Shown one piece after another: positions 6,741 through 62,773 of a stretch of DNA of 64,000 bases. The notes beneath the pieces are model-generated. The model saw only the letters and a program-made list of their open reading frames with translations, was not told where the DNA came from and searched no databases. A program made the translations under genes and the position numbers. The stretch is from positions 682,001 to 746,000 of the forward strand of contig NZ_QFDM01000002.1 in assembly GCF_023702065.1 (NCBI RefSeq). The letters run 5' to 3'. Origin of the DNA: Methanoculleus oceani (lineage in GTDB: Archaea > Halobacteriota > Methanomicrobia > Methanomicrobiales > Methanoculleaceae). Position 1 is the stretch's first letter. Each line of letters begins with the position of its first letter.

Positions 6741-6867
6741 GGTAATAGCAGCGAGCTGCACTTCCCGAGGGCTCTCGCACCTCAGTACAATACAGCACGT
6801 GAGAGGGCTTAACTTCTGGGTTCGGAATGGGTCCAGGTGTTTCCCCTCTGCTATGGCCGCTATTACC
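6741..6867 (-). rRNA. 5S ribosomal RNA
   Basis: On the minus strand the gene begins and ends with the complementary pair GGTAATAGC and GCTATTACC, the terminal helix of 5S rRNA. It contains GGGGAAACACC and CCCATTCCGAACCC, the universal loop regions. It is the last gene of the rRNA operon, downstream of tRNA-Cys. The ends follow the terminal stem and may be off by a few bases. Confidence 0.93.
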
Positions 6868-6901
6868 AGTGTCATCCGGACATGATGCGTCAATCGAGTC
6901 G

Positions 6902-6920
6902 AAAACCCCTGCGGGGTTTT
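6902..6920 (-). other. Hairpin between tRNA-Cys and 5S rRNA
   Basis: AAAACCCC and GGGGTTTT arms form a perfect hairpin with a very short loop. It resembles a T-tailed terminator, but it lies inside the rRNA operon. It could act as a processing or attenuation element, or end a fraction of transcripts before 5S. Confidence 0.45.
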
Positions 6921-6952
6921 CTCCCCCATCGACCGCTACGCGCCCGAATGGA

Positions 6953-7024
6953 AGCCAAGGCCCGGACTTGAACCGGGGTGTAGTTGATCTGCAGTCAACC
7001 GCGTGGCCGCTCCGCCACCTTGGC
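6953..7024 (-). tRNA. tRNA-Cys (GCA)
   Basis: The cloverleaf folds on the minus strand: acceptor arms GCCAAGG and CCTTGGC, anticodon loop CTGCAGA with anticodon GCA, and T arm around GGTTCAAGTCC. The discriminator is U, as expected for tRNA-Cys. No CCA is encoded. It sits between 23S and 5S, whereas in haloarchaeal operons tRNA-Cys follows 5S. Confidence 0.95.
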
Positions 7025-7102
7025 AAGCTGTGTTGCCTTACTATGTTGTCGCCCAATCTATTTAAGGGTTACACCCTTACCAGATCCGGCCATGAGGCGT
7101 TT

Positions 7103-7127
7103 ATAGGTGCGTACTCCGGATTTCGTC

Positions 7128-7140
<13 letters not shown>
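7103..7140 (-). other. 23S rRNA processing stem, 3' strand (bulge-helix-bulge)
   Basis: Pairs with 10053-10090. Read on the minus strand, 7140-7128 forms a 13-bp inner helix with the 5' strand. 7127-7124 (GACG) forms the four-base-pair central helix. 7123-7121 (AAA) is the three-base bulge. 7120-7103 forms the outer helix. This is the substrate of the archaeal splicing endonuclease, which excises and circularises pre-23S rRNA. Confidence 0.85.
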
Positions 7141-10052
<2,912 letters not shown>

Positions 10053-10065
<13 letters not shown>

Positions 10066-10090
10066 TTTAACGTCCAGAGTACGCACCTAT
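10053..10090 (-). other. 23S rRNA processing stem, 5' strand (bulge-helix-bulge)
   Basis: Read on the minus strand, 10090-10073 is the outer helix, 10072-10069 (CGTT) the four-base-pair central helix, 10068-10066 (AAA) the bulge and 10065-10053 the inner helix. It pairs with 7103-7140, with only G-U wobbles as deviations. The 3-4-3 geometry matches the canonical splicing endonuclease motif. Confidence 0.85.
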
Positions 10091-10183
10091 ACACAGCTTC
10101 TTCAGGTCAAAGACCTTCAGCCCTTCCCCGGTGACTCTCATCTCCGGGTGCATTGAAGGCGGGACCGAATCCGTCCCGCCCAG

Positions 10184-10256
10184 TGGACTCAGGGGGATTT
10201 GAACCCCCGGCCTCCGCCTCGCAAAGGCGGCGCTCTTCCAACTGAGCTATGAGCCC
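10184..10256 (-). tRNA. tRNA-Ala (TGC)
   Basis: Minus-strand cloverleaf: acceptor arms GGGCTCA and TGAGTCC, D arm AGCTCAGTTGG, anticodon stem CCGCC and GGCGG around the loop TTTGCGA (anticodon UGC), T arm GGGGGTTCAAATCCCCC and discriminator A. It lies in the 16S-23S spacer, the usual place for tRNA-Ala in euryarchaeal rRNA operons. Confidence 0.96.
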
Positions 10257-10267
10257 GAGTCTCTCCG

Positions 10268-10304
10268 TTGACATCGGCAATTTTACGTTTTGTTCAGCAA
10301 CCGC
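10268..10304 (-). other. 16S rRNA processing stem, 3' strand
   Basis: Pairs with 11830-11866. The inner helix of 16 bp and outer helix of 14 bp contain only G-U wobbles. Between them lie AAA bulges on each strand and a central four-base segment that forms two Watson-Crick pairs and one wobble with a G-A mismatch, so this is a slightly imperfect bulge-helix-bulge. Confidence 0.75.
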
Positions 10305-10324
10305 TTGCCCCAAGTAATTTCATT

Positions 10325-11791
<1,467 letters not shown>

Positions 11792-56692: not shown

Positions 56693-56842
56693 TTACGATT
56701 CCTTCAGGTACGCCTCGGGGTCCCGCTCGAAGAGCTTCTTGCACCCCGGGGCGCAGAAGTAGTAGGTCTTGCCCCTGTACTCGGACGTGAACTTCGCGGT
56801 CGCTTCGTCGACGTCCATCTTGCATACCGGATCAACTGCCAC
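56693..56842 (-). CDS. YHS-domain metal-binding protein, 49 aa
   Basis: Too short for routine gene calls but convincing: [20 protein letters not shown], then [28 protein letters not shown]. This is a complete YHS domain with the conserved D-P-V-C-x-M and the F-C-x-P-x-C-K-x-x-F metal site. The GTG start overlaps the end of copA; ATG 56848 is an alternative, and GGAGGG upstream serves both. YHS domains accompany heavy-metal ATPases and may deliver or sense copper. 56482-56692 holds no further gene. Confidence 0.85.
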
Positions 56843-59294
56843 GTGCATCTCCCTCCGACAGACCTCTCTTCGCCGGAGGTATATATGTCTTGAGCAGCAG
56901 GGAGAGCGAGACGACCGTCACCGACGAGAGCGCCATCGCGAGCGCCGCAAGTTCCGGCCGGAAGGCGATGCCGAAGAAGGGGTAGAGCACACCCGCGGCG
57001 AGGGGGATGAGGGCGGAGTTGTAGGCGAACGCCCAGAAGAGGTTCTGCTTGATCCGGCTCATCACCTTCCGGGAGAGTTCGACGGCCGCGACGGCGTCGA
57101 CGAGGTCGTCGCGGATGAGGACGATGTCCCCGCTCTCGATGGCGACATCGGTCCCGCTCCCGATGGCGATCCCGACATCAGCCTGCGCGAGCGCCGGGGC
57201 GTCGTTGATCCCGTCGCCCACAAACGCCACGACCTCGCCCCGGTCCTGGAGCGCCCGGACTTCCAGCGCCTTCTCCTGCGGCAGCACCCCGGCGTGGACG
57301 TCCTCGATCCCGATCTCGCGTGCAATGGCGTTCGCCGTCCGCTCGTTGTCGCCCGTGATCATCGTCACAGAGAGGCCCATACGCTTGAGGTCCGCAACGG
57401 CGCCCTTCGTCGTCGGCTTGAGGGTATCGGCGATGGCGAAGATGCCCGCGAGCCCGGACCCGGCGGCGACGAGTACGGCGGTCTTCCCCTCGTCCTGGAG
57501 GGCGGTTATCCTCCTCTCCGCCTCGGGGGGGACGGCGACGCCGTGCTCCTCGAGGAAAGGCTGGTTGCCGATCAGCACCTCCTCGCCCTCCACCACGGCG
57601 CTGACCCCCCTGCCGCCGAAGGTCGTAAACCGCTCCGATGCCGGGACCGCAACACCGGCACTCTCCGCCCGCCGCACGACCGCCGCCGCGAGCGGATGCT
57701 GCGAGTTGTGCTCGACCGCCGCCGCGAGCGCGAGGAGTCGGTCCTCCGGCACAGCGAGGGGGACGATATCGGTGACGTCCGGCTTTCCCCGGGTGAGCGT
57801 CCCGGTCTTATCGAAGACGACCGCGGTCAGTTTCTCCGAGACCTCAAGCGCCTCGCCGTTCCGGATCAGCACCCCGAGTTCGGCGCCCCGGCCGATCCCG
57901 ACGGTCACGGCGGTCGGGGTGGCGAGGCCGAGCGCACAGGGGCAGGCGACGACCAGGACGGAGATCAACACCGTGAGCGCAAAAAGGAGCGATGCACCGA
58001 GCCCGAAGTACCAGACGAGAAAGGCGGCGGTTGCGATCGCGAGCACGGCCGGGATGAAGTAGGAGACCGCGACGTCGGCGATCCGCTCCACCGGCGGCTT
58101 CGAGCCCTGGGCGTCCCGGACGAGCCTGATGATCTGCGATAACACCATATCCTTCCCGATCTTCTCGGCCCTGACCTGGAGGACGCCGTTCACGTTCAGG
58201 GTGCCGCCGACGACCCCGTCGCCCTCATTTTTATCGGCCGGGATGGGTTCGCCGGTGATCATCGACTCATCGACCGAACTCTCGCCGCCCACGACCGTCC
58301 CGTCTACCGGCACCTTCTCCCCCGGCCGGACGAGGAGAACGTCGCCGACGGCCACAGCCTCGACCGGAACCTCGACCTCCTGGCCGTCCCGGATCACCGT
58401 CGCGGTCTTCGGCCGCAGACCGACGAGTTTCTTGATGGCTTCCGACGTTCTTCCCTTGGCCCGGGCCTCCAGATACCTCCCGAGCGTCAGGAACGAGGCG
58501 AGCATCACCGCGGTCTCATAGAAGTTGAAGTCCGCCGTGAGGACGACCCCGAACGTCCCGAGGAGGCTTGCGCCGTATGCGACACCGATCCCCATCGCGT
58601 ACATCACGTCCATCGTCAGCGCCCGGTTCCGGAGCGCCGCGGCGGCCGCCCTGAAGATGGGGGCGCTGACGTAGAGAAAGACCGGCAGGGTGATGACAAG
58701 CATGACAAGGTTGATCGAGACCGGGAGGGCTCCCATCCCCGGCATCCCGAAGAGCATGTAGAAGAAGAGCGGGATACTCACCGCGAACCCGACGGTAAAC
58801 CGCCGGAACTTGTCCCGGAGGTCCTCCTCCCGCATCCGGGCCTCGACGTCCTCGGAGACCTCCTCCTCGAGCCCCAGGTACTGGTAGCCGGCATCCTCGA
58901 CGGCGGCACGGATGTCTGATGTGGTGACGAGCGCGGGGTTGTAGACGACGTGCGCGTTCTCGGTCGCGAGGTTGACCCGGGCCTCGTAGACCCCGTCGAG
59001 GTCGGCAAGCGAGGCCTCGATCACCTGAGCGCAGGCCGCACAGACCATTCCCCCGATCCGGACGGTGGCCTCATTCCTGATAACCTCGTAACCGGCGTCG
59101 GAAACCGTCCGTTCGAGGTCGGCGAGGGTGGCCTTCGTCGGGTCGTACTCGACGACGGCGGTCTCGGCCGCGAGGTTGACACGGGCATCGTAGACGTCTT
59201 CCCGATCCTGGAGGGCGCGTTCTATGTTGAGGGCGCAGGACGCGCAGTGCATCCCGGAGATCTTCAGTTCCGCCTTCCTCTTCTCCTCCGGCAT
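56832..59294 (-). CDS. copA: Copper-translocating P-type ATPase
   Basis: An 820-residue P1B-type ATPase. Two N-terminal heavy-metal domains carry GMHCASC (C17 and C20) and GMVCAAC. Eight membrane segments surround the CPC motif in [16 protein letters not shown] near residue 450. The phosphorylated Asp is in [14 protein letters not shown] (near 493) and [16 protein letters not shown] closes the ATP domain. It exports Cu(I), with silver as an alternative. It is followed by a YHS protein in the same transcript; no CsoR-like regulator is nearby. Confidence 0.95.
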
Positions 59295-59465
59295 GATATT
59301 CTCCTTACCGTGCGGGGTTAAATATCCGTAACCTCCGGGCCACGGTTCCCGGTGCGATCGCTCCCGGCAACGGGCCGGATCCCCGCCATTCTATGTGTCG
59401 ATTTTTATACACAATATTATTATACTCAAGGCCCGGTATAATCGCCCTATCCAGAGGTGATTGTG

Positions 59466-60410
59466 GTGCAGAGAAGGGATGTTATAACGGAAGAGGTGCA
59501 GGAGGAGAAGCGGTATGATGTCAGCCATATGGCGTCGCGACAGGATATCGACGGCCTGACCGACGCGATGCAGAGCAGCGATCCGACGGTCCGCCGGAGC
59601 GCCGCCCTCGCCCTCGGTGCGCTCGGGGAATGGAGGGCGGTTGACCCGCTCATCCGGGCGCTTGGCGACCCGGTGCAGGCCGTCCGGGAGGGGGCGGCGA
59701 ACGCGCTTGTCATGGTCGGAACACCGGCGGTCGAACCGCTGATCGATCTCCTCGAGCGTCCCGGGGCTGCAGGAGCGTATGCGGCGCCGCGGGAAGCGCC
59801 CGGGGAAGGGCTGACGCAGGTCGATCTCCTCGGAGGACCCGATGGCATACCGCCCACGAAGAGGACTCTCCGGCACAGGGGAGGCATCAGGCAGCACGAT
59901 GCGTTCGGTGGCCCGGAGGATATCCGGGAGGCGGGGGCCGGAAGGGCCCGCGATGAGGAACCGGGACTCGCCCAGCACGACGCGTTCGGCGGGCCGGAGG
60001 ATCTCCGGAGGGCGGGAGGCAAGGTGTCCCGCGACACTGAGGGTGAGATCACCCAGCACGATCTTCTCGGCGGCCCGGAGGATGTCGGGACGAAAAAGAC
60101 CGTCCGGCACCGGGAACTCGCCCAGCACGACCTCCTCGGCGGCCCGGAGGGCGCAAGGGAGCACGAGGCGCTCTTCCCCGGGGCGAGGGGGGCCGGCATC
60201 GTGCCGGAGGCCGTTCCACCGGGCCGGGGGCTGCGGCGGGCCTATGCCGCCGTGATCCTCGGCGAGATCGGCGACCCGCGGGCGGAGGGTGCTCTCAGCC
60301 GGTCGCTCTCCGATACCGATCCCGCCGTCCGGAGGGCGGCCGAGGACGGGATGGCGCGGTATCGGGAGAGGCGGGGCGAGGCCATGCCCGTCCCGCCGAC
60401 GTCCCGCTGA
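59466..60410 (+). CDS. HEAT-repeat protein with five QHD-x-x-GGPED motifs
   Basis: About 314 residues. One to two HEAT/PBS-lyase repeats at the start ([40 protein letters not shown]) and one at the end ([20 protein letters not shown]). In between, about residues 120-235 (numbered from the GTG at 59457), five copies of a ten-residue motif appear: [20 protein letters not shown] (twice), [10 protein letters not shown] and [10 protein letters not shown], spaced 23-27 residues. I know no family with this insert. GAGGTGAT at 59455-59461 acts as ribosome binding site, so GTG 59466 is preferred over 59457. It has a paralogue directly downstream; both end in PPTSR. Confidence 0.8.
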
Positions 60411-60505
60411 TGCCAGGGACTTATCCTCTTTTTCGTACTGCGGATGGCGGTCCCGTGCGGCCGGGTCGCTGTCCCGGCAAGGTTATTATATCGAGTAGGC
60501 GCCAT

Positions 60506-61477
60506 ATGCCGGATCCGGAGGCGAAACGATTGGAGCAAGGAGGAAGTTCTCTCGCAGAGCAGCGGGGCGAAAGAAGGTATAACATCGATCTCCTGCGGGC
60601 TGAGGAAGATGTAAACGGCCTGATCGAGGCATTGAGAAGCGATGGCGGCCTGACCCGCCAGCGGGCCGCCCTGGCGCTCGGGGACCTCGGCGGGCCGGGG
60701 GCGGCGGAACCGCTCATCCGGGCGCTCGGCGACCCGATGACGGCGGTCAGGGAAGCGGCGGCGGACTCGCTTGCCATGCTCGGGGGCGCGGCGGTCGGGC
60801 CGCTGGTCGAACTCATCGAGAGCCCGGAGGCGTCGGGGAAGTACGAGGAGTCGACGGCTGCCGGGAGGCCGGCGACCGTGACCGGACCAGGGGGCCAGAC
60901 CTGGGAGATCGAGACCCGGAGGGACCTCCGGAGGGTCTATGCCGCCGCCATCCTCGGCGAGATCGGCGATCCCGCCGCGGTGGAACCGCTTGCCCGGGCG
61001 CTTCACGACAAAAACGACGATCTCCGGTGCCAGGCGTCGGGAGCCCTTGCAAAGTTCGGTCGTGAGGCGGTGGGGCCGCTCGCGGGACTGCTCGCCGACC
61101 CGGACCCAGATACCAGGATCGTCGCGGCCGGCGTCCTCGGGGATACCGGGGATGCCTCGGCGGTGGAGCCGCTCATCGGGGCGCTCCGGGACGAGAACGA
61201 TGACGTCCGGGGCGCGGCGGGGGGCGCCCTCATGCGGATGGGCGATGCCGCGGTCGACCCCCTCGTCGCGGCGACGAAGGATGCCGACCGGAACGTCCGG
61301 CTCTACGCGGCGGGTGCGCTCAAGTACATCGGCGACCCGCGGGCGATCGACGCGCTCCGGGACCTCACCCTGGACGAGGATAAGGATGTAAGGAGCGTCG
61401 CGGAGGACGCGATCGATAAGATCCAGATGGTCCGGGGCGAGATGCCGGCGGAGCCGTCCCCGCCGACGTCACGGTAA
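60506..61477 (+). CDS. HEAT-repeat (PBS lyase-like) protein
   Basis: A 323-residue protein made of about six to seven HEAT repeats of roughly 31 residues each ([80 protein letters not shown]). Such solenoids mediate protein contacts. The N-terminus RRYNIDLLRAEEDVNGLIEA aligns with that of the upstream paralogue, and both share the tail ending PPTSR, so they arose by duplication. ATG 60506 is taken as start. No enzyme motif. Confidence 0.88.
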   Translation: MPDPEAKRLEQGGSSLAEQRGERRYNIDLLRAEEDVNGLIEALRSDGGLTRQRAALALGDLGGPGAAEPLIRALGDPMTAVREAAADSLAMLGGAAVGPLVELIESPEASGKYEESTAAGRPATVTGPGGQTWEIETRRDLRRVYAAAILGEIGDPAAVEPLARALHDKNDDLRCQASGALAKFGREAVGPLAGLLADPDPDTRIVAAGVLGDTGDASAVEPLIGALRDENDDVRGAAGGALMRMGDAAVDPLVAATKDADRNVRLYAAGALKYIGDPRAIDALRDLTLDEDKDVRSVAEDAIDKIQMVRGEMPAEPSPPTSR

Positions 61478-61522: not shown

Positions 61523-62773
61523 TTATCCCCTTCTCCGGACCCGTACCGACTCCGCGTGGGCGTGGAGCCCCTCCGCGTCGGCGATCGTCTCCACCACGTC
61601 GCCGATAGCCTCGAGCCCCTCCCGCGTGATCATCTGCACCGTCGAGCGGCGGCAGAAGTGGTTCACGTCGAGCCCGGAGTAGAGGCTGGCGTAGCCTGCA
61701 GTCGGGAGGACGTGGTTCGTCCCCGACGCGTAGTCGCCACAGGCCACCGCCGCGTAGGGGCCGACGAAGATTGACCCGGCGCTCCGGATGCGGTTGATGA
61801 CGGCAAGCGGGTCGGCCACCTGGACCGAGAGGTGCTCGGGGGCGATGCCGTCGACCGTCGCCACGGCCTCGTCGAGGTCGCCGGCCACGATGTAGCCCGA
61901 GTGCTCAAGGGCTTTTGCGACGATCTCCCGGCGTTTCGCCTCTCCGGCCATCCGCTTCACCTCGGCCCCGACCGCATCGGCGATGGCCGCGTCGGTCGTC
62001 ACGAGTACGCAGGCGGCGTTCGGGTCGTGCTCGGCCTGGGCGAGGATGTCGGCCGCGACAAAGGTCGGGTTCGCCGTGCTGTCTGCGAGGATCGCGATCT
62101 CGCTCGGACCCGCGGGGAAGTCGATCTCGGCCTCGTCGCGCAGAAGCATCTTCGCGGCGGTGACGTAGACGTTCCCCGGGCCGACGATCTTTTCCACCCG
62201 CGGGACCGTTTCGGTCCCTATTGCCATCGCCGCGATCGCCTGGGCGCCGCCGACCCGGTAGACCTCGTCGACCCCGGCGATGTCGAGCGCGACGAGGGTG
62301 ATCGGGCTCGTCGGCGGCGGGGTGCAGCAGCAGATCTCTCGGACCCCCGCGACTTTGGCCGGGATCGTGCACATCAACGCCGTCGAGGGGTATGCCGCCC
62401 GCCCGCCGGGGACGTAGGCTCCGATCCTCGCAAGGGGCGTCGTCCTGACGCCGAGGGTGATCCCGGGCTCCACCTCCTGCAGCCAGAGGTCGCGCCCGCG
62501 CTGCAGCTCGTGGAACCGGCTGATCCGCTCCTCCGCCTCCACGAGGCTCTCGACCAGCCGTGCGTCCACCTGATCGTAGGCCGCCTCCCGCTCCTCGTCG
62601 GAGACGGCGATCTCCTCCAGATCGATGCCGTCGAACCTCTTCGTCAGGTCGAGCAGGGCGGCGTCGCCCTCCGCCCGCACCCTCCCGATGATCTCAAAGA
62701 CCGGTCCCTTCACCCGGTCGAGGTCCGACCGCCGTCCGGCGAGCCAGGTCTCGATATCCAGCGCCTGCCACAT
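61523..62773 (-). CDS. hisD: Histidinol dehydrogenase
   Basis: The 416-residue zinc enzyme oxidises L-histidinol to histidine with two NAD+, the last step of the pathway. Family blocks are GAYVPGGRAAYPSTALMCTI, YRVGGAQAIAAMAIGTETVP, KIVGPGNVYVTAAKMLL, the zinc-ligand region DILAQAEHDPNAACVLVTT and GSIFVGPYAAVACGDYASGT, NHVLPT. No other his genes are adjacent. It is convergent with the HEAT-repeat gene and divergent from tupA. Confidence 0.95.
   Translation of the reverse strand: MWQALDIETWLAGRRSDLDRVKGPVFEIIGRVRAEGDAALLDLTKRFDGIDLEEIAVSDEEREAAYDQVDARLVESLVEAEERISRFHELQRGRDLWLQEVEPGITLGVRTTPLARIGAYVPGGRAAYPSTALMCTIPAKVAGVREICCCTPPPTSPITLVALDIAGVDEVYRVGGAQAIAAMAIGTETVPRVEKIVGPGNVYVTAAKMLLRDEAEIDFPAGPSEIAILADSTANPTFVAADILAQAEHDPNAACVLVTTDAAIADAVGAEVKRMAGEAKRREIVAKALEHSGYIVAGDLDEAVATVDGIAPEHLSVQVADPLAVINRIRSAGSIFVGPYAAVACGDYASGTNHVLPTAGYASLYSGLDVNHFCRRSTVQMITREGLEAIGDVVETIADAEGLHAHAESVRVRRRG

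Follow-up and report, generated by a model that had tools for sequence, protein, structure and literature searches.

The window, that is, the whole 64,000-nucleotide stretch of Methanoculleus oceani DNA analysed here, contains a gene for a HEAT-repeat protein that carries an array of five short motifs (gene A, encoding protein A). It lies between a divergent copA-type P-type ATPase gene and its own paralogue, gene B, and a hisD-like gene closes the locus (Table 1). The names copA, hisD and tupA were assigned from sequence, not by family search. The reading frame of A can begin at GTG 59457, giving a protein of 317 aa, or at GTG 59466, giving one of 314 aa. GTG 59466 is probably the true start, as a GAGGTGA ribosome-binding site is found at 59454–59460 and the resulting N terminus, MQRRD, matches that of a longer homologue in a sister genus. 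By eye, TTTTTATA at window positions 59402–59409 (+) is a possible archaeal TATA box of A, in a region shared with the divergent copA.

Table 1. Genes and protein features at the array locus (positions refer to the window).
Feature	Position	Strand	Remarks
copA-type P-type ATPase, divergent; neighbour of A in Methanoculleus, of the long gene in the sister genus	56832..59294	-	two N-terminal CxxC repeats
Gene A, HEAT protein with motif array	59466..60410	+	ORF from 59457
N-terminal HEAT helices: repeats 1 and 2, helix A of repeat 3	59532..59780	+	Pfam HEAT_2 31-102; AlphaFold pLDDT about 88-93
Predicted disordered insert with five motifs, between helices A and B of HEAT repeat 3	59808..60194	+	pLDDT <50 over most of 110-252; alignment
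Motif copy 1, QVDLLGGP	59817..59840	+	
Motif copy 2, QHDAFGGP	59892..59915	+	
Motif copy 3, QHDAFGGP	59973..59996	+	
Motif copy 4, QHDLLGGP	60054..60077	+	
Motif copy 5, QHDLLGGP	60123..60146	+	
C-terminal HEAT helices: helix B of repeat 3, repeat 4, then tail PPTSR	60225..60380	+	pLDDT about 90; C-terminal HEAT stretch
Gene B, paralogue with full HEAT solenoid; loop of roughly 30 residues replaces the array	60506..61477	+	start 60506 or TTG 60530; listed ORF from 60410
hisD-like gene closing the locus	61523..62773	-	name from sequence

Pfam placed protein A in the families HEAT_2 (E = 3e-21; 75.9 bits against a gathering score of 27.7) and HEAT_PBS (47.1 against 20.9 bits), with matches at both ends of the protein, flanking the array, and none in between. 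AlphaFold predicted a solenoid of antiparallel helix pairs (residues 43–109 and 259–306, pLDDT about 90), and the Foldseek matches included alphaRep HEAT proteins. As helices 89–100 and 259–271 of A align with one HEAT repeat of the array-less B, the array is placed within HEAT repeat 3 of the four, where it separates helix A from helix B. Structure prediction, proposed as a check in the preliminary description, gave confident HEAT helices but no regular secondary structure in the loop (residues 110–252), where pLDDT was mostly below 50, a value that comes from a shallow alignment of 29 close orthologues and that a small novel fold in each unit would also give. With several conserved short motifs, variable linkers and predicted disorder, this loop has the layout of a multivalent scaffold.

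Counted from GTG 59457, the five motifs begin at residues 121, 146, 173, 200 and 223, at spacings of 25, 27, 27 and 23 residues, in agreement with the copy number and the spacing of 23–27 residues initially reported. In 20,000 shuffles of protein A, QxDxxGGP occurred 0.001 times on average and at most once, against five times in the real protein. The motif had been described as ten residues built around QHD; the repetition is real, but the unit is nearer 13 residues, [IL]-x-Q-[H/V]-D-[LA]-[LF]-[GA]-G-P-x-x-[IV], with hydrophobic residues at positions −2, +3, +4 and +10 and with the His outside the invariant core. Consistent with the suggestion of an undescribed domain, the motif had no significant match among Pfam families and PDB sequences. 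One PDB match (4u08, E = 0.22) was set aside as chance; it looks like a leucine-rich repeat protein. A literature search returned no match for protein A. Tandem Repeats Finder detected no DNA tandem array at this position and synonymous sites differ between the copies, ruling out a young minisatellite.

We then looked at how far the array extends beyond this one sequence, a search called for in the preliminary description, and found it to be conserved. Gene A was present in 32 of the 35 Methanoculleus genomes, the window's own included, in a search of 61 genomes, and absent from three. A profile of the insert, run against 232 genomes of the class, returned the same 32 genomes and two of another genus of the family, the sister genus. 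Searches also covered 393 genomes drawn evenly across the phylum, in addition to a single scan of viruses and a single search of plasmids. No plasmid matched, and spread by viruses was rejected because the only viral match (L128) was a QHDLLGGP occurring once by chance in a GC-rich frame; a weak match in genome G452 was an alanyl-tRNA-synthetase-like protein without the motif. When 41 genomes were scanned at the DNA level for QHDxxGGP or QHDxxAGP, matches were seen in Methanoculleus only and clustered at gene A, the array being confined to one gene per genome in this set. In one Methanoculleus genome (G020, L085:1853–2383, minus strand), gene A is no longer intact: its pieces lie in three frames and the motif has decayed. 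Intact copies occur elsewhere in the genus.

Across 29 aligned orthologues, five copies of the motif were found in 17 proteins, four in seven, three in three and two in two. Copy number changes by whole in-frame units, with the spacing staying at 23–29 residues; the first and last units are retained, and the middle units vary and drop out cleanly. One three-copy protein (L035) has a degenerate first copy, with GGV for GGP. Among the 126 copies, Q and the second G of the core are invariant, D and P are each kept in 125, position −2 is I or L, +3 is L or A, +4 is L, F or Y and is followed by G or A, and +10 is I, V, A or L. His is present in 98 copies and replaced by V, I or F in the other 28, all of them first copies (28 of the 29). 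In the sister genus, Asp is E or Q in three of ten copies; Gln, Gly and Pro are unchanged. By simple Nei–Gojobori counting, in which the pairs are not independent, dN/dS was 0.068–0.080 for the motif cores, 0.27 for linkers of the same loop and 0.28–0.30 for the HEAT parts. Column entropy of the cores (0.25) was likewise below that of the linkers (0.86; p = 3e-8) and the HEAT parts (0.68; p = 9e-5). The motif cores are under strong purifying selection.

Protein B had been noted as a neighbouring paralogue with ordinary HEAT repeats, and Pfam and alignment confirmed this at 60410–61477. The sister genus has one gene of about 430 aa between copA and hisD (G096 and G097; loci L108 and L109), whose product has an N-terminal part resembling that of A and B as well as five motifs, and also contains every C-terminal HEAT repeat of B; its linkers differ from those of Methanoculleus A. 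In A itself, only one and a half HEAT repeats follow the array. In a further genus (G036, L081), this place is occupied by one 323-aa gene that has no array. The tail PP[TA]SR ends window A (60410), window B (61477) and both long proteins, despite the differing numbers of HEAT repeats before it. Judged from these gene architectures, a duplication went together with a loss of HEAT repeats from A, as A is truncated after the array, B has the full solenoid, the long gene has both and the tail is common to all. A tree of the N-terminal HEAT part divides into A, the long gene, and a group of B and the G036 copy, joined at 96/93, a value obtained from 98 columns only and with one long branch. As the copA tree leaves the order of genera unresolved, loss of the array from B and its original absence there are indistinguishable. 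In Methanoculleus sp. MH98A (L049:5001–6878), a frameshift near the end of A, either real or a sequencing error, puts A and B in one frame of 626 aa.

Overall, we lean towards a model where A is a small, rigid HEAT platform that presents a short linear motif two to five times and thereby docks one or more partners multivalently. Each copy of the motif, Phi-x-Q-x-D-Phi-Phi-[G/A]-G-P-x-x-Phi (Phi, hydrophobic), carried on the flexible loop, would make a weak contact with one type of groove, located on a partner protein or repeated across several subunits of an assembly. The copies would jointly give avidity or collect several partner molecules, so that changes in copy number would adjust the avidity or how many partners A can hold, and the HEAT part may bind something else or itself. 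The invariant or nearly invariant Q, G and P and the fixed hydrophobic positions match expectations for a docking peptide anchored through hydrophobic residues, and not those for a metal site. Partner binding, one of the roles suggested at the outset, fits the selection pattern (dN/dS of 0.07–0.08 in the cores), and we infer that the motif binds protein, that the binding is multivalent and that A acts as a scaffold or adaptor. Against the model, the array is limited to two genera and missing from three Methanoculleus genomes; the limitation would require a lineage-specific partner or a dispensable function. A bolder version, which we put forward tentatively and consider rather doubtful, is that Methanoculleus and the sister genus share a new, dedicated docking peptide with a receptor of its own, through which A and the long sister-genus protein collect several receptor molecules and form a multivalent archaeal assembly or condensate of an undescribed kind; gene duplication and complementary loss of parts would then have separated the array from the long solenoid.

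Several known systems share part of this arrangement. The likeness to CsoS2 of alpha-carboxysomes is proposed by analogy, from the recurrence of short conserved residues along a disordered chain; CsoS2 has no HEAT part. In CsoS2, such residues bind partners weakly and multivalently (PMC11365436). Unlike A, CsoS2 has known partners, Rubisco and shell proteins, and is essential for carboxysomes; the Pfam and PDB searches with A returned no CsoS2-like family. OE2401F of Halobacterium salinarum, also archaeal, belongs to the same Pfam HEAT families as A (HEAT_PBS/HEAT_2, COG1413). It is a HEAT_PBS adaptor that interacts with CheD and a CheF protein and has no other detected domain (PMC2666748); no motif array has been described for it, in contrast to A. 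Whereas a chemotaxis adaptor would be expected beside CheF or other che genes, A lies between copA and B or hisD, and CheF of the same genome is on another contig (G000:C3). CheF occurs in genomes with and without A, making it uninformative about a chemotaxis link. A survey had already described Methanoculleus marisnigri as rich in HEAT_PBS proteins, in passages that make no mention of such an array (PMC3837014). NCBIfam matches to the HEAT part of A included NblB and the phycobilin lyase subunits CpcE and CpcF, all scoring far below the cut-offs of their families (45.2 of 330 and 26.8 of 220 bits for CpcE and CpcF). To our knowledge, methanogens have no phycobiliproteins. Deoxyhypusine hydroxylase (4d4z, among the Foldseek matches) has a HEAT-repeat fold like that of A. 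Its metal ligands are His-Glu pairs inside the HEAT repeats, where A has no His.

Alternatively, the motifs might dock on HEAT solenoids, either on that of A itself, in a closed and autoinhibited form, or on that of B, so that a complex of A and B would recreate the long sister-genus protein. This would agree with the sister genus having one polypeptide, encoded at the same locus, that contains both the array and the complete set of C-terminal HEAT repeats, and with A and B being usually adjacent on the same strand and both missing from two genomes (G002 and G023), in which hisD lies directly beside copA. However, four genomes with A (G013, G017, G022 and G034; 80–87% complete) lack a close B, their best matches scoring below 80 bits compared with more than 460 for true B, indicating that B is not an obligatory partner. 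Moreover, hisD directly follows A in L054, B is about 230 kb from A in G001, and AlphaFold gives no confident placing of the motifs on A's own HEAT part. We therefore regard docking on HEAT solenoids as unlikely. That each unit is a small structured repeat, which would make the array a new type of repeat domain and not a string of linear motifs, seems unlikely as well. Although such a domain would suit the regular spacing of 23–29 residues, the turn at Gly-Gly-Pro and the additional conserved K/R-x-L-R-H patch that some units share, pLDDT is below 50 without regular secondary structure across units, the insert is about 19% Gly with few large hydrophobics, two-copy proteins exist and the linkers vary more freely.

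A role as a substrate decoy, or as a repeated target of post-translational modification or proteolysis (at Gln or Gly-Pro, for example), is improbable for the motif. Such a role would be compatible with the strict conservation of a short sequence on a loop that is flexible and tolerates changes in copy number, but no obvious modifying-enzyme gene lies among the conserved neighbours and nothing else lends it direct support. Finally, the initial suggestion of metal binding by the His-Asp pairs, here spelt out as an array for Cu, Ni or Zn that is perhaps tied to the neighbouring copA ATPase, is very improbable, since, although the pairs recur and the array gene stands divergently beside copA in both Methanoculleus and the sister genus, His is replaced in 28 of 126 copies and Asp in three of ten sister-genus copies, Cys is absent from every A orthologue and His from the HEAT parts of the window protein, copA is kept where A is lost, and the invariant Q, G and P are poor metal ligands.

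On the docking model, A would join the multivalent motif scaffolds that organise carboxysomes and other assemblies, few of which are known from archaea. Closely related methanogens, several of them cultured, provide natural variants with two, three, four and five copies, and the sister genus has array and solenoid in one protein. Taken together, these make a well-defined system in which to identify the partner and to measure the effect of copy number on binding. Should the partner prove ordinary, the motif would still be a well-conserved and unannotated one missing from Pfam. Elsewhere in the window, a complete rRNA operon (16S, tRNA-Ala, 23S, then tRNA-Cys and 5S) lies at 6743–11791 on the minus strand. 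After hisD, the window has one tupA-like gene, and four other loci (L047, L053, L055 and L109) have two such genes side by side.
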